In this document: positions 4,165 to 45,541 of the stretch, piece after piece
Layout: each line of letters starts with the position of its first letter
Position numbering within the stretch: position 1 is the stretch's first letter
NCBI GenBank assembly: GCA_030653545.1
Contig: JAURZE010000004.1
Location: 1 to 45,946, forward strand
Direction of reading: 5' to 3'
From: Nitrospira sp.
Lineage (GTDB): Bacteria > Nitrospirota > Nitrospiria > Nitrospirales > Nitrospiraceae
DNA length: 45,946 bases
Program-made: the position numbers and the translations under genes
The notes under the pieces: model-generated
Databases searched by the model: none
What the model was told of the DNA's origin: nothing
The model's input: only the letters and a program-made list of their open reading frames with translations

Positions 4165-4207
4165 TGAGCAATATTGATCAGAATTTGAGTTCTTGGTGGG
4201 AGAAAAT
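4165..4207 (+). promoter_or_regulatory. Class II Crp/Fnr-type promoter of crp paralogue 2
   Basis: The site TGAGCAATATTGATCA is at 4165-4180 and a -10-like GAAAAT at 4202-4207, exactly 37 bases from start to start. Predicted transcription begins near 4214, 38 bases before ATG 4252. It implies that one Crp paralogue activates or autoregulates another. Confidence 0.7.
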
Positions 4208-4251
4208 CAAACGATTGGGCAAATGGGGCGTCAGAAGGGGCACTTATAGCG

Positions 4252-4959
4252 ATGGCCGCAGCGAAAACGGATTCAGCAAAGTCGAAACCATCCAGCGTGG
4301 CGCGAACGGCTCCTATTCAAGTCGCACGGTTTGATCCCAAGACCTTCCTTGCCAAGGTGGGCAACGGAACGACCATGCTGAGGTCCACAAAGAAGCATGT
4401 GCTCTTTTCCCAAGGGGATGCGGCGAATGCGGTATTCTATGTCCAGACAGGCAGAGTCAAGCTCACCGTAGTTTCACCGCAGGGCAAGGAAGCCGTCGTC
4501 GGAATTCTGGAGCCCGGGGCCTTTTTCGGTGAAGGCTGTCTCGCCGGACAGGTGGTGTGCATGGCAACCGCCACCGCACTGGAAGTATCCACGATTGCGC
4601 GTATCGACAGGGTCGCCATGATTCGCGTGCTCAACGACGAGCCCGCTTTTTCCGCCCTGTTCGTGGCGTATCTGTTGTCCCACAGCATTCGCATCCAAGC
4701 GGATCTGGTCGATCACCTCTTTAATTCTGCCGAGAAGCGGCTGGCGCGTATTCTCCTGCTGATGGCCCACTTCGGCAAGGAAGGGCAGCCCGTCCCGGTG
4801 ATTCCCCAGATCAGCCAAGAAATGCTGGCCGACATGATCGGCACCACGCGTTCCAGAGTCAGCTTTTTTCTGAACCGGTTCAAGAAACTGGGCTTCATCA
4901 AGTATAACGGTGGGCTGGAAGTGCATAGCTCGCTACTGAATATCGTGCTTCACGACTGA
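4252..4959 (+). CDS. Crp/Fnr-family transcriptional regulator (paralogue 2)
   Basis: A 235-residue paralogue of the preceding regulator with a 30-residue N-terminal extension rich in Ala, Ser and Lys. The barrel has LFSQGDAANAVFYVQTGRVK and GAFFGEGCLAG; the cAMP Arg-Ser position is CMA, so cAMP binding is unlikely. The winged helix is again TTRSRVSFFLNRFKKLGF and the tail HSSLLNIVLHD is shared with the other copies. An extra cysteine (VVCMA) is unique to this paralogue. It has its own class II dyad promoter at 4165, 222 bases separate it from paralogue 1, and its 3-prime end overlaps the convergent response-regulator gene by 27 bases. Confidence 0.9.
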   Translation: MAAAKTDSAKSKPSSVARTAPIQVARFDPKTFLAKVGNGTTMLRSTKKHVLFSQGDAANAVFYVQTGRVKLTVVSPQGKEAVVGILEPGAFFGEGCLAGQVVCMATATALEVSTIARIDRVAMIRVLNDEPAFSALFVAYLLSHSIRIQADLVDHLFNSAEKRLARILLLMAHFGKEGQPVPVIPQISQEMLADMIGTTRSRVSFFLNRFKKLGFIKYNGGLEVHSSLLNIVLHD

Positions 4960-5700
4960 CCGCGCCGCCGCTGTTCTTGTGGTGGTCCGTCTCGCGGTTC
5001 CTGACTTCTTAGCGTTTCCCTTCGTGGATTTGGGCTCGTCCATAGGCAGGACTCCGCGTTGCAGGGCCGCATGGATGAGGTCCCGGTGGGAGTGCAGCCG
5101 CATCTTCCGCAGCAAGCCGGCACGATGGGATTCGGCGGCGCGGGAACCGATCTTCAGTCGAATGCCGATATCGCGGTTGGTCGCTCCCTCCACGACGAGC
5201 TGCAGGATCTGTCGCTCGCGGGCGGTCAGTGTATCAGGGAGGCTCGGCGAACCTGTCTGAGCCTTTTCCAGCAGGGTGCCTTTTGCCGTATATGAACCAC
5301 GGAACGAATCGGAAAGCCTTGGACTCAGGTAACGCCGACCGGCAACCACTTCGTGTACGGCCTGGAGGAGCTCGTTGCCGCAGGATTCTTTGGCCACATA
5401 AGCCGCAGCACCGTTGTGCAAGGCTTCCAACACATAGGCTTCATCGCCGCACATGGAAAGAATGATGACACGGGTATCCAATTTGAGGCGCAGGACTTTT
5501 CGTGTGGTGTCGAGCCCGTTCAGTCGAGGCATCATCAGGTCGACGATCAACACCTGGGGTTTCTTCCGCTTGACGAGTTCGATTGCCTCGAGCCCGTCAG
5601 CCGCTTCGCCCACAATGACGCATCGGGGATCCGACTCCAGCAGCGCCCGCAGCCCTTGCCTCACGACAACATGGTCATCCGCCAACACAATAGTCGTCAT
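4933..5700 (-). CDS. NarL/FixJ-type response regulator
   Basis: A 255-residue protein is started at ATG 5700, preceded on the minus strand by GGGAGGAG; a longer frame to 5781 lacks this. Residues 1-120 are a receiver domain with the acidic pair ADDH, phosphoacceptor Asp in VLIVDLMMP and the conserved Lys in YVAKES. A LuxR-type helix-turn-helix follows (LTARERQILQLVVEGATNRD). The C-terminus has an unusual 35-residue basic tail rich in Lys, Arg and Thr. The gene is divergent from kaiC and near the histidine kinase at 7682, its likely partner. It may be the output of the Kai-linked pathway. Its stop codon lies inside the convergent crp gene. Confidence 0.87.
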   Translation of the reverse strand: MTTIVLADDHVVVRQGLRALLESDPRCVIVGEAADGLEAIELVKRKKPQVLIVDLMMPRLNGLDTTRKVLRLKLDTRVIILSMCGDEAYVLEALHNGAAAYVAKESCGNELLQAVHEVVAGRRYLSPRLSDSFRGSYTAKGTLLEKAQTGSPSLPDTLTARERQILQLVVEGATNRDIGIRLKIGSRAAESHRAGLLRKMRLHSHRDLIHAALQRGVLPMDEPKSTKGNAKKSGTARRTTTRTAAARSVVKHDIQ

Positions 5701-5737
5701 TGCAACGTCTCCTCCCGTGGCCGCGAAAATGTTGCTC

Positions 5738-5780
5738 ACTGTATCAGGAGCGACTCCTGATGTATGCCCTGTATTGCTCA
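5738..5780 (-). promoter_or_regulatory. Class II Crp/Fnr-type promoter of the response regulator
   Basis: On the minus strand the site TGAGCAATACAGGGCA (5780 to 5765) is followed 37 bases from its start by TACAGT (5743 to 5738), a good -10. Transcription would start near 5731, about 30 bases before ATG 5700. The right half-site is weaker than in other copies and the usual G after the site is a T. Confidence 0.5.
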
Positions 5781-5844
5781 TGCGCCTCCATCGGCGTCTG
5801 CACTGACAAACCGGGGAGCGATCTCATCGAGAGGAGGGGGGACG

Positions 5845-7299
5845 GTGGCCAGACCAACGCGAAGGGTGCTCGAACAAGAGGAGGCCGGATTGCGGAAGAA
5901 CAGGAAACAGATCAGAAAGATCCCGACCGGCATCGTCGGGCTGGACAAAGTGCTGGGCGGAGGCCTGCCTGCCGAACGTATGACACTGGTCGGCGGCGGC
6001 CCCGGGAGCGGGAAAAGCATCATCGGCTTGCAATGGCTGTTGGCGGGCACCGATGCCGGCGAGCCGGGCATTCTCGTGTTGTTCGAAGAGCGTGTCGCGT
6101 CTGTGCGCCAAAACGCCGCCGGCTTGGGATGGGATGTGGCCCGGCTGGAGCAGAAGGGCCTGCTGTGCCTGCTGGATGCCCGGATCAGTCCTGAAGCGGT
6201 GGTCTCCGGCGACTTTTCCATCAAGGGGCTGCTGGCGATCATCGGACAGAAGGCCAAGGCCATGCGAGCCCGGCGCATCGTGATCGATGCGGTGGATGCG
6301 CTGCTGTATCTGTACGACAGCCCCATGCGCGAGCGACACGAATTATATTCGCTCCACGAATGGCTGCTGGACCAAAAACTGACGACGATGATGACGGTCA
6401 AAACAGTCCCGCAGGAGGAATCTCCCCGGTACGCATTTCTGGACTTCATGGCGGATTGCGTCATTCACGTCGATCAGCGGGTCACGCAACAGATCACCAC
6501 GCGCCGCCTGAGAGTGGTCAAGTATCGGGGGGCCGGATATGGCCGTAACGAGTACCCTTTCGTCATCAGTCAGGACGGCATCAACGTCATTCCCATCACC
6601 AGCAACGTGTTGCAGCATCGTCCGCTCGGTCCCAAAGTATCCAGCGGCCTGGCCGGGCTCGATGGCGTGCTCGCCGGCGGCTTCAGGCGCGGGGCCAGCA
6701 CGTTGATCGTGGGGACTGCCGGTAGCGGAAAGACCACGCTGGCCTGCATTTTCGCTCAGGCTGCCGGCCGACGCGGCGAGCGCGTGCTGTATCTCAATTT
6801 CGAGGAGTCGGCAGAATCGATGGTCGGCAACATGCTGAGCCCGGGCCTGGCCCTGGGGCCGCTGATCAAGCGCGGGACGCTGGTTATCCGGTCCTACCTG
6901 CCGGAAGCGATGGGCGTGGAGGAGCATTTGTTTCATGCTCTGAAAGCCCTGGATGAGCTGCAGCCTCAGCACGTCGTGGTGGATGCGATCTCGGCCTGCA
7001 AACGCATGGGCTCGGAGCAGGCGGCCTTTGAGTACCTGATGCGGCTGCTGAACGACTGCCGGGAACGCGGGATCACCTGTTTCTATCTTAATCAGGCAAC
7101 CGGCCTTGATATCGTCGCAGAGATCAGCGGCATCGGTATTTCGTCCATTATCGACACCGTGGTGCTGCTTCGCCATCTTCCGGTCGGCCATGCGATGAAA
7201 CGCCAGTTGCTCGTCATGAAGTCGCGGGGCTCGAAACATTCCGACCTCTTCCACGAATTCCACATTACTGATCGAGGAATTGAGCTGGAGAAGACCTAG
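5845..7299 (+). CDS. kaiC: KaiC-like two-domain ATPase
   Basis: A 484-residue protein starting at GTG 5845, behind AGGAGGGGG; the longer frame from 5764 has no ribosome-binding site. It has two RecA-like KaiC domains. Walker A is GPGSGKS (about 52-58) and GTAGSGKT (about 290-297); FEE catalytic glutamates are near 80-82 and 319-321; Walker B stretches are RIVIDAVDALL and HVVVDAISACK. Where cyanobacterial KaiC has the phosphorylated S431-T432 pair, this protein has Ser-Ser (GISSIIDT, about 433-434), so autophosphorylation remains possible. It lies upstream of kaiB and a histidine kinase; no kaiA is visible. In non-cyanobacteria, KaiBC systems are linked to stress responses and simpler timing. 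The role here is inferred. Confidence 0.9.
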   Translation: MARPTRRVLEQEEAGLRKNRKQIRKIPTGIVGLDKVLGGGLPAERMTLVGGGPGSGKSIIGLQWLLAGTDAGEPGILVLFEERVASVRQNAAGLGWDVARLEQKGLLCLLDARISPEAVVSGDFSIKGLLAIIGQKAKAMRARRIVIDAVDALLYLYDSPMRERHELYSLHEWLLDQKLTTMMTVKTVPQEESPRYAFLDFMADCVIHVDQRVTQQITTRRLRVVKYRGAGYGRNEYPFVISQDGINVIPITSNVLQHRPLGPKVSSGLAGLDGVLAGGFRRGASTLIVGTAGSGKTTLACIFAQAAGRRGERVLYLNFEESAESMVGNMLSPGLALGPLIKRGTLVIRSYLPEAMGVEEHLFHALKALDELQPQHVVVDAISACKRMGSEQAAFEYLMRLLNDCRERGITCFYLNQATGLDIVAEISGIGISSIIDTVVLLRHLPVGHAMKRQLLVMKSRGSKHSDLFHEFHITDRGIELEKT

Positions 7300-7355
7300 C
7301 TCACAAGAGCAGCCCGGTCGGTCTATTCGATGGGGCGCAGGTACACGGGAGTCCG

Positions 7356-7685
7356 ATGATGAAATCTTGCAGTCTCAAGACGCGCCGGACGGCGCCGGCC
7401 GGAGAGAATACCTATGTCTTCCAGCTCTTCGTGGCCGGCAACGAGTCCAATTCGACGCAAGCCAGAGATAACCTGGCCAGACTCTGCAAGGAACACCTCA
7501 CGGGGCGGCACAAGATCACCATCGTAGACGTGCTGAAAGACGCCGCGACCGCGTACACCCATCATGTGCTGGTGACCCCCACCTTGATCCTGATCAAGCC
7601 TCTGCCCAAGGTTCTTCTATTGGGCAACCTCAGCGATACGCGGCATGTGCTTGCCGCGCTCAGACTGATCGGTGGTGAGCAATGA
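7356..7685 (+). CDS. kaiB: KaiB-like thioredoxin-fold protein
   Basis: A 109-residue protein starting at ATG 7356 (or 7359), behind CGGGAG. After about 17 extra residues it has the KaiB core: YVFQLFVAGNESNSTQA, HKITIVDVLKDAATAY, and VTPTLILIKPLPKVLLLGNL, with the cis-proline TPT motif. KaiB binds KaiC and, in cyanobacteria, the related N-terminal domain of the kinase SasA competes for it. Here the gene overlaps the downstream histidine kinase by ATGA, so the pair resembles a SasA split into two polypeptides. It follows kaiC by 56 bases. Confidence 0.87.
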   Translation: MMKSCSLKTRRTAPAGENTYVFQLFVAGNESNSTQARDNLARLCKEHLTGRHKITIVDVLKDAATAYTHHVLVTPTLILIKPLPKVLLLGNLSDTRHVLAALRLIGGEQ

Positions 7686-8494
7686 GGCCCCGGAAACCGC
7701 CGCTCCGCAAACCGCAGATCAAGGGAGCAGCGGCAGAGGAGTTGGTTCACGCGCTGAGGACTCACCAGGTGGACGCCATCGTCGGCGAGCGCCACATCAT
7801 GCTGGTCCGTTTGAAGCAGGCGGAAGAGAACCTCGAGCTGTCGCGGAACCAGCTGCGCGCCCTCACCGCAAGTCTGTTGTCCACACGGGAGCATGAACGG
7901 ACCGTCATTGCCCGGGAGATCCATGATGAGCTGGGCCAGGCGCTGACATGCGTGCAGTTGGGATTGTCCTGGATCGCCGGCAAGGTGACGGCACGGCAAC
8001 AGCCGTTGCGGGACAAGATCAACTCGATGACGGCGCTGGTTATGACCATGATCCGGACGGTCCAACGAATCGCGGATGACTTGCGTCCTGGCCTGTTGGA
8101 TGAGTTGGGGCTGGTGAAAGCCTTAAAGTCAGAGGCACGGAAGTTCACCGGATATACGGGAATACCCTGCAAATTTGAGACGAATATGGGGAACACCAAG
8201 TGTAGCCGTGAAGGGGGTATTACTATCTTTCGTATCGGCCAGGCAGCCCTCACGAATGTGGCCCGGCATGCCAACGCATCCAAGATCGTGATGTCTTTGA
8301 TGGATGAAAAAACTCATCTTGTCTTGACGGTGCATGACAACGGGAAAGGGATCACCAGGGAGCAGATCTCGAGCGCCCAGTCGCTCGGCATTATCGGCAT
8401 ACGAGAGCGCGTCCTGGCGCTCAAGGGCTCTCTGAAGATCAGGGGTTCAAAAACGACGGGGACAACCTTGACGGTACGAATAGTTCATTTCTGA
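7682..8494 (+). CDS. Cytoplasmic histidine kinase (HisKA_3 type)
   Basis: A 270-residue kinase whose ATG at 7682 overlaps the kaiB stop, so translation is coupled. No transmembrane segment is seen. Residues 1-70 are charged and partly coiled coil; the phosphoacceptor is His in REIHDELGQALT; the dimerisation helices follow; the ATPase part has QAALTNVARHANA (N box) and VHDNGKGI (G1). This is the NarL-partner class of kinases, matching the response regulator at 4933. A separate KaiB-like sensor fits the absence of an input domain. The 3-prime end overlaps the convergent gene at 8485 by ten bases. Confidence 0.87.
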   Translation: MRPRKPPLRKPQIKGAAAEELVHALRTHQVDAIVGERHIMLVRLKQAEENLELSRNQLRALTASLLSTREHERTVIAREIHDELGQALTCVQLGLSWIAGKVTARQQPLRDKINSMTALVMTMIRTVQRIADDLRPGLLDELGLVKALKSEARKFTGYTGIPCKFETNMGNTKCSREGGITIFRIGQAALTNVARHANASKIVMSLMDEKTHLVLTVHDNGKGITREQISSAQSLGIIGIRERVLALKGSLKIRGSKTTGTTLTVRIVHF

Positions 8495-8706
8495 GCTTTT
8501 GTTCTTGGTATCTTATCGCCGGACCGCTTCTGGGGGCCCCGGCGTTGAAGCTCTTCAAGTAAGAGGCCTTCTGCCGCACCTCGATTTTCCACGGGTCCCT
8601 GTTCAACTTCTCGAGTCAGCCACATTTCGTAAGCCAGCTCGTCCTCCTTTGGTCTGACCGCAGGAGGAGGGGCCGTTGGTTTTCTCGTAGTCGCTTTCCT
8701 CGCCAT
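8485..8706 (-). CDS. Small basic protein of unknown function
   Basis: A 73-residue product begins at ATG 8706, after GAGG on the minus strand. It has a Lys/Arg/Pro-rich N-terminus (MARKATTRKPTAPPPAVRPK), an acidic-hydrophobic helix (EDELAYEMWLTREVE) and a basic C-terminus. DELAYEMW loosely recalls DUF2934 proteins, one of which lies at 37618, but the match is too short to assign. It is likely cytoplasmic. Its end overlaps the end of the histidine-kinase gene. Confidence 0.6.
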   Translation of the reverse strand: MARKATTRKPTAPPPAVRPKEDELAYEMWLTREVEQGPVENRGAAEGLLLEELQRRGPQKRSGDKIPRTKAQK

Positions 8707-8741
8707 TCCACACCTCGCTTTCTGGTTGAAAGTTACCTGTG

Positions 8742-9329: not shown

Positions 9330-9467
9330 CGTAACGGTCCAGCCTCTCTGCGGTTCATTCAATGCGGTCACCACGCTTAAACGTGTTGGCCATGGGGTTC
9401 TCCGTACGGAGCGCTCGCAAGTTCGGTCACCTCCGCCAGCGCTCCTGGACGCTCGGCGAGGGTATCG

Positions 9468-10208: not shown

Positions 10209-10222
10209 AAGTACATCCCTTC

Positions 10223-12521: not shown

Positions 12522-12564
12522 ACGGTAAGACAATTCAGGAGCCGTATCTGTTCAAAGTTGCTCA
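12522..12564 (-). promoter_or_regulatory. Class II Crp/Fnr-type promoter of the TPP-enzyme operon
   Basis: On the minus strand TGAGCAACTTTGAACA runs from 12564 to 12549, followed at the standard offset by TACCGT (12527 to 12522). Transcription would begin near 12515, giving a leader of about 130 bases. A second site at 12616 points the other way, so the two promoters are divergent. The region 12386-12920 holds no other gene that I can support. Confidence 0.65.
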
Positions 12565-12615: not shown

Positions 12616-12658
12616 TGAGCTGCATTGACCAGACGTCTTCAGCCGATAGGCAGAGTAT
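12616..12658 (+). promoter_or_regulatory. Class II Crp/Fnr-type promoter upstream of the DUF4382 gene
   Basis: TGAGCTGCATTGACCA (12616-12631) is followed at the standard offset by GAGTAT (12653-12658). The next plus-strand gene starts at 12921, so the leader would be about 255 bases. The block is nearly repeated at 14472-14514, including the spacer. Confidence 0.5.
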
Positions 12659-14471: not shown

Positions 14472-14514
14472 TGAGCTGTATTGACCAGATGGTATCGGCT
14501 GAAAGGTAGAGCAT
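14472..14514 (+). promoter_or_regulatory. Class II Crp/Fnr-type promoter of the 14569 gene
   Basis: TGAGCTGTATTGACCA (14472-14487) and GAGCAT (14509-14514) sit at the standard offset. Predicted start is near 14521, 48 bases before ATG 14569. The rest of 14223-14568 contains no supported gene. Confidence 0.6.
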
Positions 14515-14976: not shown

Positions 14977-14984
14977 AAAAGTCG

Positions 14985-17717: not shown

Positions 17718-17760
17718 TGAGCAATAGTGAACAGATTGTGGGCTGTCTATTTCGGTAAAT
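17718..17760 (+). promoter_or_regulatory. Class II Crp/Fnr-type promoter of the 17811 lipoprotein
   Basis: TGAGCAATAGTGAACA (17718-17733) is followed at the standard offset by GTAAAT (17755-17760). Transcription should start near 17767, leaving a 44-base leader that contains a small hairpin. Confidence 0.7.
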
Positions 17761-18164: not shown

Positions 18165-18330
18165 GAGATGCCATCGCACGGGGGTTCCGGTTTCATGAAG
18201 ACCCAATAGGGGCTGGTGATTTGCCAGGACCCTGGTCCACGTGGGGCGCGGCGGGGTGATCGAGTTTAAAAGCGATTTGGTGAACCCGGTGGCTTTGCTG
18301 CAGCGTCCAGCACCAGTGGAGGTCAGCGCG

Positions 18331-19485
18331 ATGAGCCGAGGTCAGTCAAACCAGTGTGTGGTGGAACGGAGCGTTGGATCGCAGTCGACGGCGTCCGCTC
18401 CACTTCTTCCAGTGACCCATGTCCAGTCATTCCATGTGGAATACATGGAGGTGGCGCGGTTACAGACACGTCTAAGCGCTTCGCCATCCGGCTTCCTGGC
18501 GGTCGTCCATCATGGCCGAACTTCAGGGAGTCCCTGCGGCACGGGTGTCCTTCCGGTTGTCTCTCTCGATCTGCCGCAATTGAGCGACCCGCCATTAGCC
18601 GAGGTGTGGACCAGCCCTCTGCCGGTGACCTATCACCAGGCCGAGGGAATCCACTGCGCCATGAATGACGAGGTGCTCTTTGGCGCGCTGCAGGTGGTAG
18701 AGCTCCCGGGAGCGTTGCTGGATACGGTGACCTACCGCGCGTATCGACAGCTGCTTATGCAGGCACGTGCTCTGGGGTATCCACATCTGCTACGGGTGTG
18801 GAACTATTTTCCTTCTATCAATAGCGAGTCCGACGGGCTGGAGCGGTATCAGCGCTTTTGCGCGGGCCGGTACCAGGCGTTGGCCGAGGGGCTTGAGGGA
18901 TTTCCTCGAACCTTGCCTGCCGGGACCGCCGTCGGGACGCTGTCCGGTCCGCTGACCATCTATTTTCTGGCGGCGAAGCAGCCTGGCGCGCATATAGAAA
19001 ATCCTCGGCAGGTGAGCGCGTACGAGTATCCGCCTGTCTATGGTCTCCGCAGTCCGTCGTTCGCACGAGCCACTCTTCAGCCGTCTTTTTCAGGAGCGCA
19101 ACTGCTCATCGCCGGTACGGCGAGTATCGTCGGTCATGCGAGTGAGCATGTCGGCGCGCCTCACCAACAGACCCTGGAAATACTGCACAACCTCAATGTG
19201 TTGCTCGTACGGACTGAACAACTCCTTGGCATTGATCGCGGGCAGTGGTTTGGGCGGGCGCTCTTCAAAGTCTATATTCGGCATCCGGAACATGCGGTGA
19301 CGATTCGGGACATGCTGACGGCGTTGTTGCCGTCCCATGCGCAGGTGCTCTACCTGCAGGGAGAGATGTGCCGAAGCGAGTTATTAGTGGAGATCGAGGC
19401 CGTGTTGACTCAAGAGCAGAGGGCCGGAGTGAGCCATCGGGGGCTTGCCGGCTCAAGTGGGTTCTCCGCAGCCGGTAGGATTTGA
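18331..19485 (+). CDS. Chorismatase-like enzyme (FkbO/Hyg5/XanB2 family)
   Basis: A 384-residue protein started at ATG 18331, behind GGAGG at eight bases. Family signatures are LLRVWNYFPSIN, GLERYQRFCAGRYQALAEG, LPAGTAVGT and SPSFARATL, typical of chorismatases and the related XanB2 hydroxybenzoate synthases, which convert chorismate to dihydroxycyclohexadienoate or 3-/4-hydroxybenzoate. The C-terminal half has a YjgF-like trimer fold (LLIAGTASIVGHASEHVG). It is two bases upstream of a methyltransferase and then a polysaccharide deacetylase gene, so the operon may make a modified aromatic or envelope compound. The precise product cannot be told from sequence alone. Confidence 0.8.
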   Translation: MSRGQSNQCVVERSVGSQSTASAPLLPVTHVQSFHVEYMEVARLQTRLSASPSGFLAVVHHGRTSGSPCGTGVLPVVSLDLPQLSDPPLAEVWTSPLPVTYHQAEGIHCAMNDEVLFGALQVVELPGALLDTVTYRAYRQLLMQARALGYPHLLRVWNYFPSINSESDGLERYQRFCAGRYQALAEGLEGFPRTLPAGTAVGTLSGPLTIYFLAAKQPGAHIENPRQVSAYEYPPVYGLRSPSFARATLQPSFSGAQLLIAGTASIVGHASEHVGAPHQQTLEILHNLNVLLVRTEQLLGIDRGQWFGRALFKVYIRHPEHAVTIRDMLTALLPSHAQVLYLQGEMCRSELLVEIEAVLTQEQRAGVSHRGLAGSSGFSAAGRI

Positions 19486-19487
19486 AT

Positions 19488-20381
19488 ATGAGCCGGATCG
19501 CGTCACCAGCGCGTGAGTCCTGTCGCGAGGAGACGGCAGACGTCGTTCATGCTCCGCCGCCGGCCAAGGCGGCGCAAGTCAGGGCGTGCTCGGACATTGC
19601 CGCTCGCAACCAGGGTTTCTACGACGCACTCTGGTCTGCAAGCTCTGTGACCCTCCCGCAGCGATTTAATACCTGGCCGCTGCTTTCCGCGCTCGCCGCC
19701 TCGGCTCCGGCGCGACTCGAAATCGGCCCAGGCTTGAGGCCAAGACTGCCGATTGCGGGGACATCCTTCGTCGATATCAGCCAGCCGGCTCTCTCCCGGC
19801 TGAAGGCGCACGGCGGTCTCACGATGCTCGGTGACGTGACTGCGCTGCCATTCCCTGACCGCAGCTTCGATTTGCTGTGCGCCTTCGATATCGTCGAGCA
19901 CATTGAAGATGATCAGCAGGCGTTCTGCGAGCTCTCCCGTGTCGCGAAGGACGATGCGATCGTGGTTCTTTCCGTGCCGCTGCATCCCGCGTGCTGGAGC
20001 GCCTTCGACACGCTGGTGGGGCACGTTCGACGCTACGAGCCCGGCGAACTTCTCGCGATCCTCAGAACGCATTCCTTTTCGTTGGAGCAGAGCGCGGTGT
20101 TCGGTATGCAGCCCAGGAGCGGCTGGCTTCTCGACTTTGCGGTCTGGGGTCTGACGCACAAACCGGTGCAGGCGATGCGTTGGTACAACGGGCTGTTTCT
20201 GCCCCTCGGACTGTTCTTGCAGAGGCCTCTCGCCTGGTCGACCGGCCTGACCGACGTGACGAACGTCGACGAGATCCTGCTTGTCTGCCGGCGTGACCGT
20301 CGGCCTGCAGAGCAGAGTCCTGCAGTAGAGCGTATGCAGATGGTCCTGGAAGCGCCGGACATGATTGTGGAACCTCGATGA
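19488..20381 (+). CDS. SAM-dependent class I methyltransferase
   Basis: A 297-residue protein starting at ATG 19488 behind TAGGA; a TTG at 19482 overlapping the previous stop is an alternative. Motif I is RLEIGPGLRPRLP, followed by FVDIS (motif II region), DVTALPFPDRSFDLLCAFDI (motifs post-I/IV) and the tail HVRRYEPGELLAIL, as in Methyltransf_11 and quinone or small-molecule methyltransferases. It directly follows the chorismatase gene, so the substrate may be an aromatic acid or a lipid-linked derivative. The last 40 residues are Pro/Arg-rich. Confidence 0.83.
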   Translation: MSRIASPARESCREETADVVHAPPPAKAAQVRACSDIAARNQGFYDALWSASSVTLPQRFNTWPLLSALAASAPARLEIGPGLRPRLPIAGTSFVDISQPALSRLKAHGGLTMLGDVTALPFPDRSFDLLCAFDIVEHIEDDQQAFCELSRVAKDDAIVVLSVPLHPACWSAFDTLVGHVRRYEPGELLAILRTHSFSLEQSAVFGMQPRSGWLLDFAVWGLTHKPVQAMRWYNGLFLPLGLFLQRPLAWSTGLTDVTNVDEILLVCRRDRRPAEQSPAVERMQMVLEAPDMIVEPR

Positions 20382-21529: not shown

Positions 21530-21572
21530 TGAGCAATTGTGAACAGACTGCCCACAGCCTTCCCGCCATAAT
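21530..21572 (+). promoter_or_regulatory. Class II Crp/Fnr-type promoter of the 21641 gene
   Basis: TGAGCAATTGTGAACA (21530-21545) and CATAAT (21567-21572) at the standard offset. One of the best -10 matches in the set. Start near 21579, 62 bases before the zinc-ribbon gene. Confidence 0.75.
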
Positions 21573-21640: not shown

Positions 21641-21850
21641 ATGACTTGCCGAGTAGCCCGATCGTTTCACGATCGCAGCCAACAGGATCTGGTCGCTTGT
21701 TGCGAATGTGGCTCGCCGATTCTAAAAGTTCGCTCCGACTCACAATCCTTGGGCCCGCATCTATGCCCAATGTGTGCACAGCCCCTCGTTGCACGCGGAG
21801 CGGTGAATGAACGGGCGTTGACGCCCATACGTGATTGTGTTTCTGCCTGA
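21641..21850 (+). CDS. Small zinc-ribbon protein
   Basis: A 69-residue product from ATG 21641, behind AGAAGGAGG. It has VACCECGSPI and HLCPMCAQPL, two CxxC knuckles 24 residues apart that should bind zinc. The N-terminus is basic. Together with the small zinc ribbons at 1049, 14985 and 32944 it suggests a local group of similar proteins, two of which have class II promoters. The DUF3309 gene follows at 156 bases. Confidence 0.65.
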   Translation: MTCRVARSFHDRSQQDLVACCECGSPILKVRSDSQSLGPHLCPMCAQPLVARGAVNERALTPIRDCVSA

Positions 21851-22509: not shown

Positions 22510-23676
22510 ATGACTCAATTATCGAACGTTGTCAGAAGAAGCTCTGTTGCCCTGTGTGCCTTTTTCAGTGGCGTGCGGAATGTGACAGTCGTGATGGCAT
22601 GTCTGCTGTGTCTGTTCTCCGGACGTGTATCGGATGTGGTGGCGGCAGACGATGCCTATATTGCCGGCTATGCTGCTGCCGTGCTCCACAACGAGTTCAA
22701 AGCACCCAAAGCATCCGTGTTGGTACAGCATGGCGTTGTGACAGTCGAGGCCGAATCGCTCGGGACCGTGGACCGGACCAAGGTCCAAGCCGCCTTGGAA
22801 GCCATTCCCGGTGTGACACGCGTGGAGATCCGCGAGGGGCCAGTGAGTGCTATAGCTCCCACGTCTCCATCCTCGCAGGTCATCAAGCCGGAACTTCCGA
22901 AGACCGAGTCGAAGTTTCTGCCCCACGGCCTGCTCTTCGCTCCGCTGCACGCCGATCCTCGGTGGCCGCATTTATCCGCCGGGTATCGTCATATCTCGGC
23001 CGGCACTGAGCCGAAAACCACCGGGGCTGCAAACTTCGGAGAAACGTTCGCGCTCTATCGGGATGCGGCTCCTTTGGACGGCCAATGGGACATCGCCATC
23101 CAGGCCGGCGTCTTCAGCATGTTCAATATGGACACCGCGTCGAAAGATCTGGTCAATGCGGATTATACGGTCGGTTTGCTCACCAGTTACCGGACCGGAG
23201 CCTTTTCCGGTTTCCTTCGCTTCCATCATCAAAGCTCGCATCTGGGGGATGAATTTATCCTCAACAGCCGGACTCCGGTGAACCGGCTGAATTTGAGCTT
23301 TGAGGAAGTGGATCTGAAGCTGTCCTATGAGCTGGCCTCCTGGCTGCGCGTGTATGGCGGCGGCGGCGTGCTGGTGGGGAAAGATCCGAAAACCCTCGGA
23401 ATCGGCACCAGCCAGTTCGGTGCTGAACTCACCAGTCCCTGGACGTTATTGAGCGGAAAAATTCGTCCGGTCGTGTATGCCGATTTTCAGGCCAATGAGC
23501 GAAGCAATTGGGCGGTCAGTCGCTCCCTGATGGCCGGACTGCAATTTGAAAATGCGCGCATCGGGGACCGTAAACTGCAAGTGCTGGTGGAGTACTTCAA
23601 AGGGCCATCGCCCAACGGCCAATTTTTTACGCAAAGCACTGACTGGCTGGGACTCGGCATCCATCTGTACTACTGA
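22510..23676 (+). CDS. BON-like plus DUF1207 outer-membrane protein
   Basis: A 388-residue protein from ATG 22510, spaced eleven bases from AAGGAG. After a signal peptide (to about VVAADD), residues 45-105 resemble a BON domain (YIAGYAAAVLHNEF, SVLVQHGVVTVEAESLG, ALEAIPGVTRVEI). The rest is DUF1207: FLPHGLLFAPLHADPRWPHL, FGETFALYRDAAP, FHHQSSHLGDEF and a C-terminal aromatic end LGIHLYY, as in outer-membrane beta-barrels. DUF1207 proteins are predicted barrels of unknown function; the added BON part could contact lipid or another envelope protein. The combination is unusual to me. Confidence 0.8.
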   Translation: MTQLSNVVRRSSVALCAFFSGVRNVTVVMACLLCLFSGRVSDVVAADDAYIAGYAAAVLHNEFKAPKASVLVQHGVVTVEAESLGTVDRTKVQAALEAIPGVTRVEIREGPVSAIAPTSPSSQVIKPELPKTESKFLPHGLLFAPLHADPRWPHLSAGYRHISAGTEPKTTGAANFGETFALYRDAAPLDGQWDIAIQAGVFSMFNMDTASKDLVNADYTVGLLTSYRTGAFSGFLRFHHQSSHLGDEFILNSRTPVNRLNLSFEEVDLKLSYELASWLRVYGGGGVLVGKDPKTLGIGTSQFGAELTSPWTLLSGKIRPVVYADFQANERSNWAVSRSLMAGLQFENARIGDRKLQVLVEYFKGPSPNGQFFTQSTDWLGLGIHLYY

Positions 23677-23938: not shown

Positions 23939-23981
23939 TGTGCACTATTGCTCAGCGGGCTTCTTCCCCTTCAGTCACACT
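23939..23981 (+). promoter_or_regulatory. Class II Crp/Fnr-type promoter of the superoxide dismutase
   Basis: TGTGCACTATTGCTCA (23939-23954) and CACACT (23976-23981) at the standard offset. It shares TGTGCACTATTG with the site at 38346. Start near 23988, leader about 78 bases. Confidence 0.6.
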
Positions 23982-26000: not shown

Positions 26001-26043
26001 TGAGCAATTGTGACCAGCAGGCATCTGCCGGGACGCGTAGTCT
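26001..26043 (+). promoter_or_regulatory. Class II Crp/Fnr-type promoter of the 26084-27853 cluster
   Basis: TGAGCAATTGTGACCA (26001-26016) equals the consensus; TAGTCT (26038-26043) is at the standard offset. Start near 26050, 34 bases before ATG 26084. Confidence 0.75.
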
Positions 26044-30857: not shown

Positions 30858-30900
30858 TGAACAATTGTGAACAGATCCTTCCTCAGCAGGAGAATAGTCT
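30858..30900 (+). promoter_or_regulatory. Class II Crp/Fnr-type promoter of the 30937 gene
   Basis: TGAACAATTGTGAACA (30858-30873) and TAGTCT (30895-30900) at the standard offset. Start near 30907, leader about 30 bases. Confidence 0.75.
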
Positions 30901-32633: not shown

Positions 32634-32676
32634 TGAGCAAATATGATCAGACCGGCATTCGTCATTTCTACATACT
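32634..32676 (+). promoter_or_regulatory. Class II Crp/Fnr-type promoter upstream of the 32944 gene
   Basis: TGAGCAAATATGATCA (32634-32649) and CATACT (32671-32676) at the standard offset. Start near 32683; the zinc-ribbon gene begins at 32944, or at GTG 32800 if the longer frame is used. The rest of 32213-32943 holds only the crp remnant and a tRNA-like fragment. Confidence 0.65.
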
Positions 32677-35563: not shown

Positions 35564-35713
35564 TTGGGGGCGTATCGGGCATGTGACATGTGTGATGGAC
35601 GGTGGCCTCCCGATGGTTCTTGCTCGTGGCCAGGGGGGCTGGAGTTTACAGGGACGGTCGTTTTCAGATGAGCCGGTATGGAGCAGTGCACTTCTAGCAA
35701 TCAAGGAGTCGTG

Positions 35714-36469
35714 ATGCCTACAGCGGAACTCATTCAGCGGACAAAACAGAGTCGAGCGGTCAAGAGTGGGCGCACCCCGCAAGCGATGGCGACGGTCTCA
35801 CGTTGTGAGCCTCCGTCGCCTTGTGCGCCCGTAAGCCTGGCTCATAACGGTCAGCGGACATTGGATCAAGGCCAGGGGCGAACTCTGGTGACGTATCCCA
35901 GGAAACACACGATCTTCTCACAAGGGGAGCGGGCTCACGCTGTCTACTACATCCGGGAGGGCAAGGTGAAGCTGACGGTGGTCTCGCCGCAGGGGAAAGA
36001 AGCTGTCGTTGCGATTCTGGATCGTGGTGCCTTTGTGGGGGAGTCCTGTCTTGCGGGCCAGCAGGTGCAGTTGGCGACCGCCACCACCCTGGAGGACTCC
36101 AGTCTCGTGCGCATCGACAAAGACGCAATGATTCATCTTCTTCGCGAGGAGTCCGCATTCGCTGAATTCTTTATGGCGTACCTGCTGACGCATGCGATGC
36201 GTGTGCAAGAGGATCTGGTGGACCACCTCTTCAATAACAGCGAGAAGCGGCTTGCGCGGGTGCTGCTGCTATTGGCTCGATTTGGAACAGAGGGCAAGCC
36301 GGAGCCGGTGATCGCGAAGATTAACCAGGAAACACTCGCCGAAATGGTCGGTACGACGCGCTCCCGTGTCAGTTTCTTTATGAATAAGTTCCGCAAGCTT
36401 GGCTACATTGAGTACAGCAGCGACTTGCACGTGCACAGTTCACTCCTCAACGTCCTTCTTCACGACTAG
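35714..36469 (+). CDS. Crp/Fnr-family transcriptional regulator (paralogue 3)
   Basis: A 251-residue paralogue of the 3376 and 4252 regulators, started at ATG 35714, five bases from AAGGAG; an earlier ATG at 35678 would precede the ribosome-binding site. An N-terminal extension of about 50 residues is Ser/Pro-rich. The barrel has IFSQGERAHAVYYIREGKVK and GAFVGESCLAG with QLA at the cAMP-contact position. The winged helix is TTRSRVSFFMNKFRKLGYIE, identical over the recognition residues to paralogue 1, so both may read the same dyad. The tail is HSSLLNVLLHD. Confidence 0.9.
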   Translation: MPTAELIQRTKQSRAVKSGRTPQAMATVSRCEPPSPCAPVSLAHNGQRTLDQGQGRTLVTYPRKHTIFSQGERAHAVYYIREGKVKLTVVSPQGKEAVVAILDRGAFVGESCLAGQQVQLATATTLEDSSLVRIDKDAMIHLLREESAFAEFFMAYLLTHAMRVQEDLVDHLFNNSEKRLARVLLLLARFGTEGKPEPVIAKINQETLAEMVGTTRSRVSFFMNKFRKLGYIEYSSDLHVHSSLLNVLLHD

Positions 36470-36553: not shown

Positions 36554-36596
36554 TGAGCAATTTTGACCAGATCTCCGCCGGGGTTATTGCCAGAAT
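36554..36596 (+). promoter_or_regulatory. Class II Crp/Fnr-type promoter of csbD copy 1
   Basis: TGAGCAATTTTGACCA (36554-36569) and CAGAAT (36591-36596) at the standard offset. Start near 36603, leader about 60 bases. Confidence 0.7.
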
Positions 36597-38345: not shown

Positions 38346-38388
38346 TGTGCACTATTGACCAGCCTTAGGCTCGTGCCGGTGCTAGCCT
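38346..38388 (+). promoter_or_regulatory. Class II Crp/Fnr-type promoter of the 38459 gene
   Basis: TGTGCACTATTGACCA (38346-38361) and TAGCCT (38383-38388) at the standard offset. Start near 38395, leader about 64 bases. Confidence 0.65.
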
Positions 38389-39724: not shown

Positions 39725-39767
39725 TGATCAATTGTGATCAGATCGTAGTCAGTTCTCTTGCCATACT
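39725..39767 (+). promoter_or_regulatory. Class II Crp/Fnr-type promoter of csbD copy 2
   Basis: TGATCAATTGTGATCA (39725-39740) is the most symmetrical site in the set, with TGATCA at each end. CATACT (39762-39767) lies at the standard offset. Start near 39774, leader about 78 bases. Confidence 0.78.
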
Positions 39768-40843: not shown

Positions 40844-40865
40844 CCGAATTCGTGAGCGCAGAGCG

Positions 40866-40903
40866 ATGGGGGTGAGCGAGGCGATGGTCTGGCTCACCCC
40901 CAT
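40866..40903 (+). terminator. Terminator-like hairpin after the SmbP-like gene
   Basis: ATGGGGGTGAGC (40866-40877) pairs perfectly with GCTCACCCCCAT (40892-40903), 12 bp, 14-base loop, 22 bases after the stop. The tail is T-poor (TGCGTTG). Confidence 0.55.
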
Positions 40904-40968
40904 TGCGTTGTCGAGAGTGTGGGTGACCGGTTTGTGAACCATTCTGTTTTCTTGGGAACGGGCTGAAT

Positions 40969-42252: not shown

Positions 42253-42460
42253 ACTGACTGGCAAGGACTCAGTGAGCAGTTTGTGAAGCCATTCCTGTCG
42301 AGATTTCAGGCGGGCATACACCGCTTGTGGCCGACCCCGGCAATCCTTCATCTCTCCGGCCTTAGATGAAGTATCTGTCCGGTAGCCTGCCGTGTATTCG
42401 AAGTGAAGCGCGAGCGGTCGTGGGGGCACTGTCCCCCCTACTATTCTAAATCTTCATGCG

Positions 42461-42503
42461 TGAGCAATTGTGATCAGACCGCTGCCGGGCTTCTCTCCAT
42501 ACT
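42461..42503 (+). promoter_or_regulatory. Class II Crp/Fnr-type promoter of the cytochrome gene
   Basis: TGAGCAATTGTGATCA (42461-42476) and CATACT (42498-42503) at the standard offset. Start near 42510. A GGGGG/CCCCC hairpin (about 42422-42438) precedes it. Confidence 0.75.
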
Positions 42504-42526
42504 TCTGACGCACGGAGGGCGATCCA

Positions 42527-42574
42527 ATGCAGGCTAGACTCAAGCGACGCTTCATTCACAGCGTCATCACCTGA
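42527..42574 (+). CDS. Possible 15-codon leader peptide
   Basis: ATG 42527, behind GGAGGGCG, opens a 15-codon frame (MQARLKRRFIHSVIT) ending at TGA 42572-42574, between the class II start and the cytochrome ATG 42592. The strong ribosome-binding site in a short leader suggests translation or an attenuation role, but it may be chance. Confidence 0.35.
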   Translation: MQARLKRRFIHSVIT

Positions 42575-42591
42575 ATAAAAAAGAGAACATC

Positions 42592-44004
42592 ATGAAGACA
42601 CACAAATGGATCATGTCCGGTCTGGTTCTGCTTGTCGGCTCCCTGCTGGTCGTGGGCGCCGGGAGCGCTTCTGGCCAAGCCACGGAAAAGCCGCCGAAGG
42701 GAACCAGCTATGCACCCGTTGATCTGAAGGAGGACTTTGCGGCCGTCATGGCTCGGATGAAAGCCGCCAAACCTGCGGTCGTGAAGCGGCAGATGGATTT
42801 GCTTCACCAGCGGTACGACCTCGCGAACCGTCCTGCTAAAGATGTCACGATGTCCGGTGGTAAGCCTATTCAAGAAGGCATCCGAGTCACACTTCCGCAA
42901 GGGATGACCTGGGACAAGCTTCAGGTCATGAGCCCTGAAGAAGTACGCGAGAAGAATGCGTTTCCGGCCGGATTTTTTCCGCTTCCTCATCCCAACCACC
43001 CTGAAGGAGGGATGCTGTTTCCCCAGTTCCACATTGAAGAAATTCAGAAGCAGGAGGGCCGCGATCTCACTCGATTTGACCTGGAATTCGATCTGCCTGC
43101 TCATTTTGTCCCTGAGTTTCCGGCACCCATCTATCTGACGACCAGACCCGATCTCGGCGATGTGACCCAGGGAAAATTGGTGACGATCGACAACTACTAT
43201 GAACTCTTCAACGGGATGCTGAACCCGAAACAGCTGGAGGGGGTGCGGTTGTTAGTCACGCCGTTCCCGCAGCAGCAATTCAACCAGACGGAAGATCGTC
43301 GGACAGTGCGTCCGAGCCGGGGGGTGGCCTGCTTCGACTGTCACGCCAACGGTCACACGAATGCCAGTACGCATCTAGCCGGAGATGTGCGCCCGCAGGA
43401 GTTCCGTCACAGGATTGATACTCCGACGTTGCGCGGCGTGCACATCCAACGACTGTTCGGCTCCCAGCGGGCGCTGAAGACGGTGGAGGATTTTACGGAG
43501 TTTGAGCAGCGCGCGGCCTATTTCGACGGCGATCCGGTGATCGCGACAAAAAAAGGGGTCAACATTCTCGAGCGGGGCAGCCAAGTGCATTTCATGGCGG
43601 AGTTCCAGGAACTCCTGGACTTCCCTCCGGCGCCTAAGCTGGGCATAGACGGCAAGTTGAACCCCCACAAGGCCACGGAGTCCGAGAAGCGCGGGCAGGG
43701 TCTGTTCTTCGGCAAAGCGTCCTGCGCCGGTTGCCATCAGGCGCCCTATTACACGGACAACTCCATGCACAACCTGAAGGTGGAGCGCTTTTATAAGCCT
43801 CGGATGATCAATGGGCGCATGGCGAGCGCCGATGGCCCCATCAAGACGTTTCCCCTGCGCGGCATCAAGGATTCGCCTCCGTACTTGCACGATGGACGGC
43901 TGCTGACACTCGAGGATACCGTGGAGTTCTTCAATATTGTGTTGGGAACTTCATTGACCGCTGAAGAGAAGCAGGACCTGGTGGCCTTCCTGCGCGTCCT
44001 TTAA
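42592..44004 (+). CDS. Di-haem cytochrome c (MauG/CCP-related)
   Basis: A 470-residue protein from ATG 42592, behind AAAGAGA. A signal peptide (to about SASGQATE) leads into the periplasm. Two haem sites are seen: CFDCH near residue 247 and CAGCH near 378; the second is followed by YYTDNSMHNLKVERFYKP and PPYLHDGRLLTLEDTVEFFN, the typical end of the MauG/bacterial cytochrome-c-peroxidase family. It may reduce peroxide or oxidise a partner. The N-terminal 240 residues are longer than in standard peroxidases and of unknown role. It has its own class II promoter. Confidence 0.85.
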   Translation: MKTHKWIMSGLVLLVGSLLVVGAGSASGQATEKPPKGTSYAPVDLKEDFAAVMARMKAAKPAVVKRQMDLLHQRYDLANRPAKDVTMSGGKPIQEGIRVTLPQGMTWDKLQVMSPEEVREKNAFPAGFFPLPHPNHPEGGMLFPQFHIEEIQKQEGRDLTRFDLEFDLPAHFVPEFPAPIYLTTRPDLGDVTQGKLVTIDNYYELFNGMLNPKQLEGVRLLVTPFPQQQFNQTEDRRTVRPSRGVACFDCHANGHTNASTHLAGDVRPQEFRHRIDTPTLRGVHIQRLFGSQRALKTVEDFTEFEQRAAYFDGDPVIATKKGVNILERGSQVHFMAEFQELLDFPPAPKLGIDGKLNPHKATESEKRGQGLFFGKASCAGCHQAPYYTDNSMHNLKVERFYKPRMINGRMASADGPIKTFPLRGIKDSPPYLHDGRLLTLEDTVEFFNIVLGTSLTAEEKQDLVAFLRVL

Positions 44005-44154
44005 CGCGGGAAGGAAGAGCCAGCGATAGAGTCAGCCGGCGGAGGGGGAACAATACCGTGATGGCTGCTGAGTTCGCCAGCAATCACCGGCACGGGGGCG
44101 CCCTATCAAAACGGGAGCGTCCTACTCTCACGTGTCTCACGAAAGGAAGGCGTC

Positions 44155-44721
44155 GTGCAAACAACCAATGGTCCAACTGATATGAAGACGTTACGGGCGC
44201 GGGCACGACAAGGGAGTGAAGATAGAGTAATGGCCATATGCGACAAAGCGAAAGCCGAGCGCGTGATTAAGCTGCTGAATGAAGCCCTCGCGACAGAAAT
44301 CATCTGCGTTCTTCGGAATAAGCGGCATTACTTCATGGCTACACGAACCAGTTCCCCCGGCGTGAAGCGAGAGTTTCTTCAGCATGTCATTGACGAGCAG
44401 GCGCATGTGGACCAATTGGCTGAACGCATTGTCCATCTCGGGGGCGAGCCGGATCTGTCCTCCGAAGAGTTGCTGATCCGGAGCCACTCGGAATATGTCG
44501 AAGGTAACTCGTCGGCGGAGATGATCACGGAAGATCTGATTGCTGAGCGGATCGCGATCGCCAGCTATCGGACAATGATCGCCTCTGTCGGCTCCGATGA
44601 CCCCACGACTCGTACGGTGTTGGAGCAGATCCTTGCGCAAGAAGAAGAACATGTCGAGGCTCTATCCAGTCTCTTGGAGGCCGTAGGTTCTCGATCTACA
44701 TCTCAACGCCCGGGTCGCTGA
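44155..44721 (+). CDS. Ferritin-like di-iron protein, copy 2
   Basis: A 188-residue protein starting at GTG 44155, behind GAAAGGAAGG. It is paralogous to 24811: ALATEIICVLRNKRHYFMAT, HVIDEQAHVDQLAERI, DLIAERIAIASYRTMI and AQEEEHVEALSSLL hold the iron ligands. It has a basic C-terminal tail of its own. It lies 150 bases after the cytochrome gene and is followed by a tiny membrane-protein gene. Confidence 0.85.
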   Translation: MQTTNGPTDMKTLRARARQGSEDRVMAICDKAKAERVIKLLNEALATEIICVLRNKRHYFMATRTSSPGVKREFLQHVIDEQAHVDQLAERIVHLGGEPDLSSEELLIRSHSEYVEGNSSAEMITEDLIAERIAIASYRTMIASVGSDDPTTRTVLEQILAQEEEHVEALSSLLEAVGSRSTSQRPGR

Positions 44722-44744
44722 ACGGGCGGGAAAGAAGGTGCACC

Positions 44745-44828
44745 ATGGGAAAGGCATTTATTCTCTGGCTACTGGGAGTCCCATTCACCCTGCTCGTCGT
44801 GCTCTGGATCTTCGGTGTTTTTCGATAA
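44745..44828 (+). CDS. Tiny single-pass membrane protein (copy 2)
   Basis: A 27-residue frame from ATG 44745, behind AGAAGG: MGKAFILWLLGVPFTLLVVL plus WIFGVFR, one hydrophobic helix with LWLLGVP at the core. It is a relative of the frame at 27761 (LWVLGVP). Two similar tiny products make it likely that both are real. Function unknown. Confidence 0.7.
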   Translation: MGKAFILWLLGVPFTLLVVLWIFGVFR

Positions 44829-45018
44829 GCCGATTGATGGATGGTTTACGCAGGGCAGCGAGAGCTCGATCGCGACGTCGCGCTCGTGCGATTGCCGGAC
44901 TCGCCTTTTATGCGAGGGGTAGGGCGTCGGCCCGGCGCGATCGTTCCCGGGATGCTTTGCCATGTTGAGGGGGCGGACGCACAACTCGATACGAGTCCAT
45001 TTACAGGGAGGGATGACC

Positions 45019-45390
45019 ATGACTACTGCCGTCGCAATCCAGGACCCAGCCAAGGCGAAAGCCCATTTCGAAGCCAAGATGGCGTTCACCACCGGGCCTG
45101 TCGAACTCGAACGGATGATGAAGAAGCACGAGGTGACGATCGTGGACGTTAGGGCTGCTGAAGACTATGCCGAGGGGCATATTCCCGGAGCGATCAATCT
45201 TCCGAAGGATCAGTGGCAGACGTTGAAAGGCCTGCGTAAGGACAAGACGAATGTCCTGTATTGCTACTCGCTGGTTTGTCATCTCGCCGCGACGGCGGCG
45301 GTAGAGTTTGCCGGGAGCGGCTATCCGGTCATGGAGTTGGACGGTGGCTGGCGTTGGTGGAAGGACGATGACTTTCCTGTCGAACGATGA
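45019..45390 (+). CDS. Rhodanese-domain protein
   Basis: A 123-residue protein started at ATG 45019, with CAGGGAGGG just upstream. The rhodanese domain is seen as VTIVDVRAAEDYAEGHIPGA followed by the active-site loop YCYSLVCHLA, the first cysteine being the usual sulfurtransferase residue, and WRWWKDDDFPVER at the end. No signal peptide. Single-domain rhodaneses move sulfane sulfur in stress and cofactor pathways. Confidence 0.85.
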   Translation: MTTAVAIQDPAKAKAHFEAKMAFTTGPVELERMMKKHEVTIVDVRAAEDYAEGHIPGAINLPKDQWQTLKGLRKDKTNVLYCYSLVCHLAATAAVEFAGSGYPVMELDGGWRWWKDDDFPVER

Positions 45391-45432
45391 CCGGGGACAG
45401 GTTCCGATTGGTGGACCGCTGTGTTCTCACCT

Positions 45433-45464
45433 GGTTGAAAGAGCTCGTGATCCTGCTTTCAACC
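45433..45464 (+). terminator. Hairpin after the rhodanese gene
   Basis: GGTTGAAAG (45433-45441) pairs with CTTTCAACC (45456-45464), nine bp around a 14-base loop, about 40 bases after the stop codon. No T-tract. Confidence 0.45.
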
Positions 45465-45497
45465 GGGCATGTTCGTGCCGGATGAATTGGTTTCAAC

Positions 45498-45541
45498 TGA
45501 GCAATTGTGACCAGACGCCGGTCTGTCCAAACGTTTAGCCT
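45498..45541 (+). promoter_or_regulatory. Class II Crp/Fnr-type promoter of the PRC-barrel gene
   Basis: TGAGCAATTGTGACCA (45498-45513) equals the consensus. At the standard offset the hexamer is TTAGCC; TAGCCT lies one base further. Start near 45547, leader about 52 bases. Confidence 0.65.

Follow-up and report, generated by a model that had tools for sequence, protein, structure and literature searches.

The stretch analysed here (the window) is the entire contig C4 (45,946 bp) of a 3.94-Mb, 39-contig genome of Nitrospira sp. and contains three genes encoding Crp/Fnr regulators as well as 16 promoter-like elements, each consisting of a palindrome followed at a nearly constant distance by a hexamer resembling a -10 box. 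We predict, with a probability of roughly 0.86, that these 16 sites are the operators of one Crp/Fnr subfamily and that they form a class II stress regulon (activator dyad at -41.5) clustered on this 46-kb contig. A predicted regulon of this kind had been proposed in a first-pass annotation of the same DNA; it is supported by a spacing that is replicated in other genomes, by sites that track the Crp subfamily and often lie downstream of crp, and by target genes of stress type.

Two of the regulator genes are in tandem, crp1 (3376–4029, + strand), which has no upstream site, and crp2 (4252–4959, +), which presents 66% identity with crp1; crp3 is at 35678–36469 (+). Site TGAGCAATATTGATCA (4165–4207, +; -10 GAAAAT) starts 136 bp past the crp1 stop and precedes crp2 with a leader of ~38 nt. 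Two sites are on the - strand: site TGAGCAATACAGGGCA (5765; 5738–5780; -10 TACAGT), in front of a gene encoding a LuxR-type response regulator (running from about 5700 to 4933), and site 12549 (12522–12564; TACCGT), in front of a gene encoding a thiamine pyrophosphate (TPP)-dependent pyruvate-oxidase-like enzyme (ends 10637; leader ~130 nt). The remaining sites are on the + strand. The next long gene after TGAGCTGCATTGACCA (12616–12658; GAGTAT) encodes a DUF4382 protein (12921; leader ~256 nt), and the target of this site is uncertain. Downstream of the site at 14472–14514 (GAGCAT) are a gene without a Pfam match (14566/14569) and an M48 peptidase gene; the site at 17718–17760, with a hexamer (GTAAAT) in which position 2 is not A, is followed by a small lipoprotein-like gene (17811; leader ~44 nt), and the site at 21530–21572 (CATAAT) by genes for a 69-aa CxxC protein (21641) and, by resemblance, a DUF3309-like protein (22007). 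An Fe/Mn superoxide dismutase (SOD) gene (24066; leader ~78 nt) follows the site at 23939–23981 (CACACT); the site at 26001–26043 (TAGTCT) precedes a small open reading frame (26084), then 26245 and a YtxH-like gene (26621), while the site at 30858–30900 (TAGTCT) precedes a gene for a 306-aa protein without a Pfam match (30934; leader ~27–30 nt) and the site at 32634–32676 (CATACT) a gene for a small CxxC protein (32800; leader ~117 nt). The site at 36554–36596 (CAGAAT), 85 bp past the crp3 stop, is followed by a csbD gene (36663; leader ~60 nt) and a gene for a BON protein (36865); the site at 38346–38388 (TAGCCT) by genes for a 118-aa protein (38459; leader ~64 nt) and a Cu/Zn SOD (39028); and the site at 39725–39767 (CATACT) by a second csbD gene (39852; leader ~78 nt) and a gene for a small metal-binding protein (SMBP; 40019). 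The last two sites, at 42461–42503 (CATACT) and 45498–45541 (TAGCCT at +38), precede genes for a 470-aa protein with weak MauG/di-heme peroxidase matches below cut-off (42592) and for a probably secreted protein (45599) that extends to the contig end, respectively.

All 16 palindromes were recovered by a pattern search of the window at the coordinates and on the strands given in the first-pass annotation. The bare pattern TGnnC-N6-GnnCA occurs at 29 + strand places, which include 13 others besides these 16; the fuller motif TGAGCAATnnTGAnCAGA, rather than the bare palindrome, sets the 16 sites apart. The -10-like hexamer starts 37 bases after the site start (+37) in 15 of the 16, with A at position 2 in 14/15 and T at position 6 in 15/15, exactly as had been annotated. 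Written as NANNNT, for which the chance per position is 0.0435, the hexamer is found at +37 in 14 sites (P = 1e-17), the exceptions being 17718 and 45498, and at any other offset between 18 and 59 in no more than five. Its consensus, approximately YATAMT, is σ70-like. Counted from the -10 hexamer, the dyad is centred at -41.5, the class II position, in 14/16 window sites and 68/79 sites of relatives. A start codon behind a ribosome-binding-like sequence is located 27–82 nt from the predicted +1 in 13 of the 16 units; the other leaders are longer (117 nt at 32634, 130 nt at 12549, and at least 141 nt at 12616). Spread of a promoter-bearing repeat was considered and rejected; the 19-nt spacers of the 16 sites match at a mean of 5.3/19 positions (maximum 12), and therefore do not resemble recent copies.

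The same spacing is present in relatives. Of 79 sites selected there on the 18-bp core alone, 68 presented NANNNT at +37, compared to at most 14 at other offsets between 18 and 59; the resulting P of about 1e-80 overstates independence, because part of the relatives' promoters are orthologous. Third-order Markov controls for these relatives gave 0–2 sites, compared to the 79 observed, and 8–17 bare palindromes, compared to 77. We also scanned the window with a matrix built solely from 78 sites of other genomes, scoring the core plus the -10 hexamer. At 12 bits or more there were 16 hits, compared to none in the reversed window and a mean of 0.0 in five first-order Markov sequences; these hits correspond to every site except 5765, with 23939 hit in both orientations. 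At 5 bits or more the 21 hits comprised all 16 sites (four also in reverse) and a doubtful extra one at 23150 (- strand), with none in the reversed window and a Markov mean of 1.0. The Markov controls were added because reversed-sequence controls are probably biased low, given CTAG-like words in reversed half-sites.

A whole-genome search with the full pattern, suggested in the first-pass annotation, yielded 16 matches, 12 of them on this contig (11/15 distinct sites); the strict full pattern used here catches only 11 of the 16 window sites. The contig represents 1.2% of the genome; the regulon is thus concentrated on this island, with a few likely members elsewhere. A looser palindrome was found at 73 places in the genome, compared to 25 in the control. 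In Nitrospira sp. CG24D, nine of 11 matches of a related pattern sit on a single contig, C8 (controls 2), which corresponds by matching coordinates to the 79.7-kb contig of locus L129. Separately, three palindromes inside 2.6 kb on another contig (G000:C22:500058-502612) are possibly a second small regulon cluster.

The statement that no -35 box is conserved proved correct only in part. Of the 16 window sites, 15 have G at position 17 and 13 have A at position 18, but only seven have C at position 19. Among flank-blind palindromes of relatives, GA at positions 17–18 was present in 48/61 orientations with NANNNT at +37 versus 9/91 without, and GAC in 40/61 versus 3/91; in other phyla the corresponding values were 21/48 versus 25/140 for GA and 12/48 versus 17/140 for GAC (two orientations were counted per palindrome, so rows are non-independent). 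These bases occupy -33 to -31, the position of GAC in TTGACA given a 17-bp spacer. A partial -35 (GA, often GAC, from -33) thus seems to belong to the promoter, and this accounts at least partly for the asymmetric consensus. Paralogue heterodimers, another candidate source of the asymmetry, were rejected; sites in genomes where only one crp was detected (G017, G024, G013, and G011) are equally asymmetric, a weak argument since those sites were selected by an asymmetric pattern.

The sites co-occur with one Crp subfamily, whose presence was called at E at most 1e-30 in a sample of 59 genomes. Strict sites were found in 14/17 genomes with the subfamily versus 2/42 without (Fisher P = 5e-9; the table used the subset TGAKCAATNNTGANCAGA, hand-picked from the strict-site list). 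A phylum-wide draw of 148 genomes, which overlaps in part with the first sample, presented the complete strict promoter in 8/12 genomes with Crp and 0/136 without (P = 1e-10); in this draw the Crp of G117 is interrupted by an internal stop and that of G092 is split. In the first sample, all three Crp-positive genomes that fail the strict pattern (G023, G051, and G035) carry variant sites near crp; the variant of G035, TGTGCAGTTTTGCACAGA, lies about 75 bp after crp and has TAGGCT at +38. A second family of pattern hits (TGTTCACTATTGACCAG...) was excluded from the site counts, as it looks like a coding start, MFTIDQSLFDENA (translated by eye). In G017, G007, G019, G034, and G013 a repeated sequence, TGTTCACTATTGACCAGTCTTTGTTTGACGAAAATGCGATCAT, matches the pattern in multiple copies and, judged by eye, looks like a conserved coding start, MFTIDQSLFDENAI; these copies perhaps represent a multi-copy gene family in Nitrospira.

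All three regulators of the window belong to the Crp/Fnr superfamily, with PF00027 and PF13545 above gathering score. The CRP equivalog of NCBIfam was not reached (65.1, 38.1, and 56.9 bits versus a cut-off of 266), and no matching NCBIfam Crp/Fnr model came near its cut-off. An AlphaFold2 model of Crp (pLDDT 78.9, pTM 0.67) matched MtbCRP (Rv3676) in Foldseek with E 1.6e-14, but with a template modelling (TM) score of only about 0.47 and a root-mean-square deviation of 16, so that the two do not match in how their domains are arranged. The genome encodes five close paralogues, three of which lie in the window; one of the five is crp2, and the other four present 60–79% identity with it. Two more Crp/Fnr proteins are distant (26–28% identity to crp2). 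Pairwise identity among the five is 51–77% in the sensor domain, 67–80% in the DNA-binding domain, and 71–100% in the recognition stretch; all of them may use a single operator.

Recognition-helix positions are given in E. coli CRP numbering and were aligned via MtbCRP (SRETV...). The helix reads GTTRSRVSFF in 66 of 83 homologues; the position of CRP residue 180 is R in all 83, position 181 is S in 77, A in five, and E in one, and position 185 is F in 78. According to PMC12531629, Arg180, Glu181, and Arg185 make the specific base contacts and are highly conserved family-wide; the subfamily thus lacks part of this contact set. The half-site keeps the outer TG and not the TGTGA core, a change that may well follow from the change in the recognition helix. 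In the MtbCRP-aligned column that we take to be the CRP arginine binding the cyclic-nucleotide phosphate, crp1 has R, crp2 and the copy on contig C17 have C, crp3 has Q, and the copy on C28 has Y; because this arginine is not kept in all paralogues, cAMP is not assumed as the ligand. The N-terminal cluster by which FNR holds its Fe-S centre, CxxC-x5-C, was not found in the N-termini of the homologue alignments; three cysteines are scattered over the N-terminus of crp3 when its longest reading is taken. A redox cysteine by the ligand pocket was also considered; it is invariant in 17 aligned sequences, but several homologues have S or G instead, and the idea was rejected.

In Nitrospirales, a same-strand site is found 71–176 bp after the crp stop in 17/23 crp genes (locus L055 excluded), and only the crp2 gene of the window has a site less than 200 bp upstream. 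The annotation of crp itself as a target therefore holds for crp2 and not in general, and crp autoregulation is not general in Nitrospirales. Among the cross-phylum loci a palindrome lies within 200 bp downstream of crp in 22/80 (8/23 for Nitrospira plus doubtful loci, 14/57 for others), compared to at most five palindromes in each later 200-bp downstream bin among those listed, and six and 11 in the upstream bins; in non-Nitrospira loci a palindrome lies less than 200 bp upstream of crp in 5/57. At L055 (G019:C5), an open frame fuses a ferritin-like start to the C-terminal half of Crp; this is likely an assembly error, as the downstream site is present in a second copy that ends in a stretch of N.

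Outside Nitrospirota, the Crp subfamily is present in Acidobacteriota, Alphaproteobacteria (including Bradyrhizobium), Rokubacteria, a Planctomycetota bin, and others; among the best 80 of 579 confirmed candidates, the closest named relative of crp2 is that of CG24D (91% identity). Palindromes are present in 27/34 Acidobacteriota loci (58 sites), 12/17 Alphaproteobacteria loci (25 sites), and 5/6 others (11 sites). In the 57 non-Nitrospira homologue loci, the asymmetric core (at most two mismatches) occurs 83 times and the bare palindrome 94 times, compared to 0–2 and 6–11, respectively, in third-order Markov controls; in 16 whole genomes with homologues, TGNNCAATNNTGNNCAG has 1 to 27 matches (controls 0–2). 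Three metagenome-assembled genomes with doubtful titles (L134, L139, and L142) were kept as their own group in the phylum palindrome counts and the tree, and were placed with Nitrospira in the crp-distance bins. A tree of the 83 homologues (rows with stops, L145 and L155, were left out of the tree and of the helix count) requires 10 label changes across five groups (minimum 4; shuffled mean 42), suggesting that the family mostly follows phyla, with a few exchanges; support is weak at the root and at many deep forks. The window paralogues separate within the Nitrospirota part of this tree, with crp3 on a long, unsure branch, and the duplications that gave rise to them therefore look old.

Targets named in the first-pass annotation could be recognised downstream of the sites for Fe/Mn SOD, two csbD genes (the second by 82% identity to the first CsbD), and a response regulator, whereas the cytochrome could not, as only MauG-like matches far below cut-off were obtained. 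The window targets comprise two regulators, crp2 and the LuxR-type response regulator, two enzymes, Fe/Mn SOD and the pyruvate-oxidase-like TPP enzyme, two CsbD, and several small proteins that are secreted or have CxxC motifs. In relatives, the target was taken as the gene whose start codon, no more than 400 nt away, was the first to be preceded by a ribosome-binding-like word (the median leader was 118 nt). The -10 filter was passed by 68 of the 79 sites, and for 61 of these a target could be assigned; one duplicate was removed and six doubtful targets were dropped by hand, leaving 54. A Pfam scan of 61 proteins (seven from the window and these 54 from other genomes) presented, among the matches listed, ferritin (6), CsbD (6), DUF3309 (5), YflT (5), rubrerythrin (5; these may be the same proteins as the ferritin matches), YtxH (3), BON (2), and one each of catalase, DJ-1/PfpI, and rhodanese, a stress profile in which oxidative defence is prominent. 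A ferritin-like gene at 44155 had no site of its own in the matrix scan of the window. A conserved protein of ~60–70 aa with an MTC(R/Q) start and CxxC motifs, encoded at 21641–21850 in the window and also found in relatives (L091, L092, L093, L099, and L104), is the product of the first gene behind the operator in several genomes. Genes for the LuxR-type response regulator, KaiC, KaiB, and a HisKA_3 histidine kinase (4933–8494) adjoin the tandem crp genes, and a chorismatase FkbO/Hyg5-like protein followed by a methyltransferase (18241–20381) is unexpected in a stress island.

In the mechanism that we propose, a dimer of the subfamily would bind TGAGCAATnnTGAnCA, centred at -41.5 beside the partial -35 (xxGACx, 17 bp before the -10), and would recruit RNA polymerase by class II activation, with the transcript starting about 12 bases past the start of the -10 hexamer. 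The predicted output in the window would include Fe/Mn SOD, two CsbD, and probably the YtxH and BON genes behind them; in relatives it may also include ferritin-like, YflT, and catalase genes. Binding by Crp, activation, and an operator shared by the paralogues are each the interpretation we favour. The same Crp subfamily could instead act as a repressor, or anti-repressor, occluding the -35 region, as the proximal half-site adjoins this region, many sites in other phyla lie at other distances from the -10, and the five palindromes upstream of crp in other phyla would also fit; we nevertheless consider repression unlikely, because the -35 is poor (GA, less often GAC) while the -10 spacing is exact in 14/16 and 68/79 sites, and repressor sites tolerate more variable positions.

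Two further explanations assign the sites to another protein. A different dimeric regulator of the island, such as the LuxR-type response regulator (4933–5781), is encoded next to the sites and preceded by one weak site; it is nonetheless a very improbable binder, since the motif is found at loci of other phyla chosen for Crp alone, most often just downstream of crp, and a dyad at -41.5 is the Crp/Fnr class II geometry. Still harder to credit is an extended recognition sequence of an alternative σ factor: the constant spacing from the -10 would agree with it, as would GA(C) at the -35 position, but the near two-fold symmetry across 16 bp, the σ70-like -10 (about YATAMT), and the tracking of the Crp protein do not.

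Several observations weigh against a Crp-activated regulon as the explanation of the sites. Site 5765 is the weakest (8.2 bits in total, 5.2 for the core); leaders are long or uncertain at 12616, 12549, and 32634; and no site was found beside the C28 crp copy of this genome. Strict sites are present with no detected Crp in G001 (92% complete) and G032 (89%), the incomplete G020 (67%) has a near-consensus site with CATAAT at +37, and the strict promoter is missing in 4/12 Crp-bearing genomes of the phylum sample. The 80 homologues were picked by conserved peptide stretches and are a non-random sample. In Acidobacteriota the -10 is split between +37 (30/116 orientations) and +38 (29/116), and in Alphaproteobacteria it is at +37 in 13/50 and at +38 in 7/50 orientations; with this looser geometry, some sites in other phyla may have other roles, and many of those in Acidobacteriota may be repressor or class I sites. 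Four of the 16 whole genomes hold a single TGNNCAATNNTGNNCAG match each (the others 2 to 27), so a large regulon is not universal.

The predicted activator resembles E. coli CRP, whose class II promoters have the site centred at -41.5, in its cNMP_binding and HTH_Crp_2 domains, dyad geometry, σ70-like -10, and retained Arg180 position; it differs in the half-site (TGNNCA versus TGTGA), in the E181 and R185 positions (mostly S and F), in an asymmetric consensus with a promoter-linked GA(C) flank, and in a phosphate-binding arginine that is not present in all paralogues. FNR, which also activates from -41.5 and has the half-site TTGAT, belongs with DNR and NnrR to the same superfamily as the Nitrospira proteins; unlike FNR, these have no TTGAT half-site, score 36.8–41.3 against 228 bits with the NCBIfam Fnr model, and have no CxxC-x5-C in their N-termini. 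MtbCRP and Corynebacterium GlxR are the best relatives of solved structure by sequence and among the best by Foldseek, but differ in the recognition helix (SRETV...), in the base-contact positions, and in overall sequence (22–24% identity). Crp/Fnr homologues or paralogues in Nitrospira are noted in PMC8510549 and PMC5596200, which, in the portions available, predict targets via matrices of other organisms (NnrR) or by analogy, without a Nitrospira-derived operator; in the available portion of the latter, the role of the Nitrospira Fnr-type regulator was described as undetermined as of 2017. Among the open-literature matches listed, no description of the operator or the helix was found; judging by its title, the motif survey of Matsui et al. 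2013 might list the motif.

Nitrospira, which are major nitrifiers, are difficult to cultivate and to manipulate, while genetics is possible in Bradyrhizobium. The class II-type promoters of the window form a real set with clear limits, and the Crp/Fnr branch to which they are tied has an altered half-site. It is conceivable, though we hold this only tentatively, that this branch crosses phyla with an operator code of its own (TGNNC-N6-GNNCA, read by an R-S-R...F helix) and runs self-contained stress islands, in which paralogues with diverged sensors share the operator so that different signals feed one promoter set, and that crp plus operator form a conserved unit sometimes moving between phyla. 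The subfamily departs from the statement of highly conserved base contacts in PMC12531629, and would represent a natural case of changed recognition together with a changed site. For this Crp/Fnr branch, found also in Acidobacteriota and Bradyrhizobium, a sharp, testable predicted operator is now offered.

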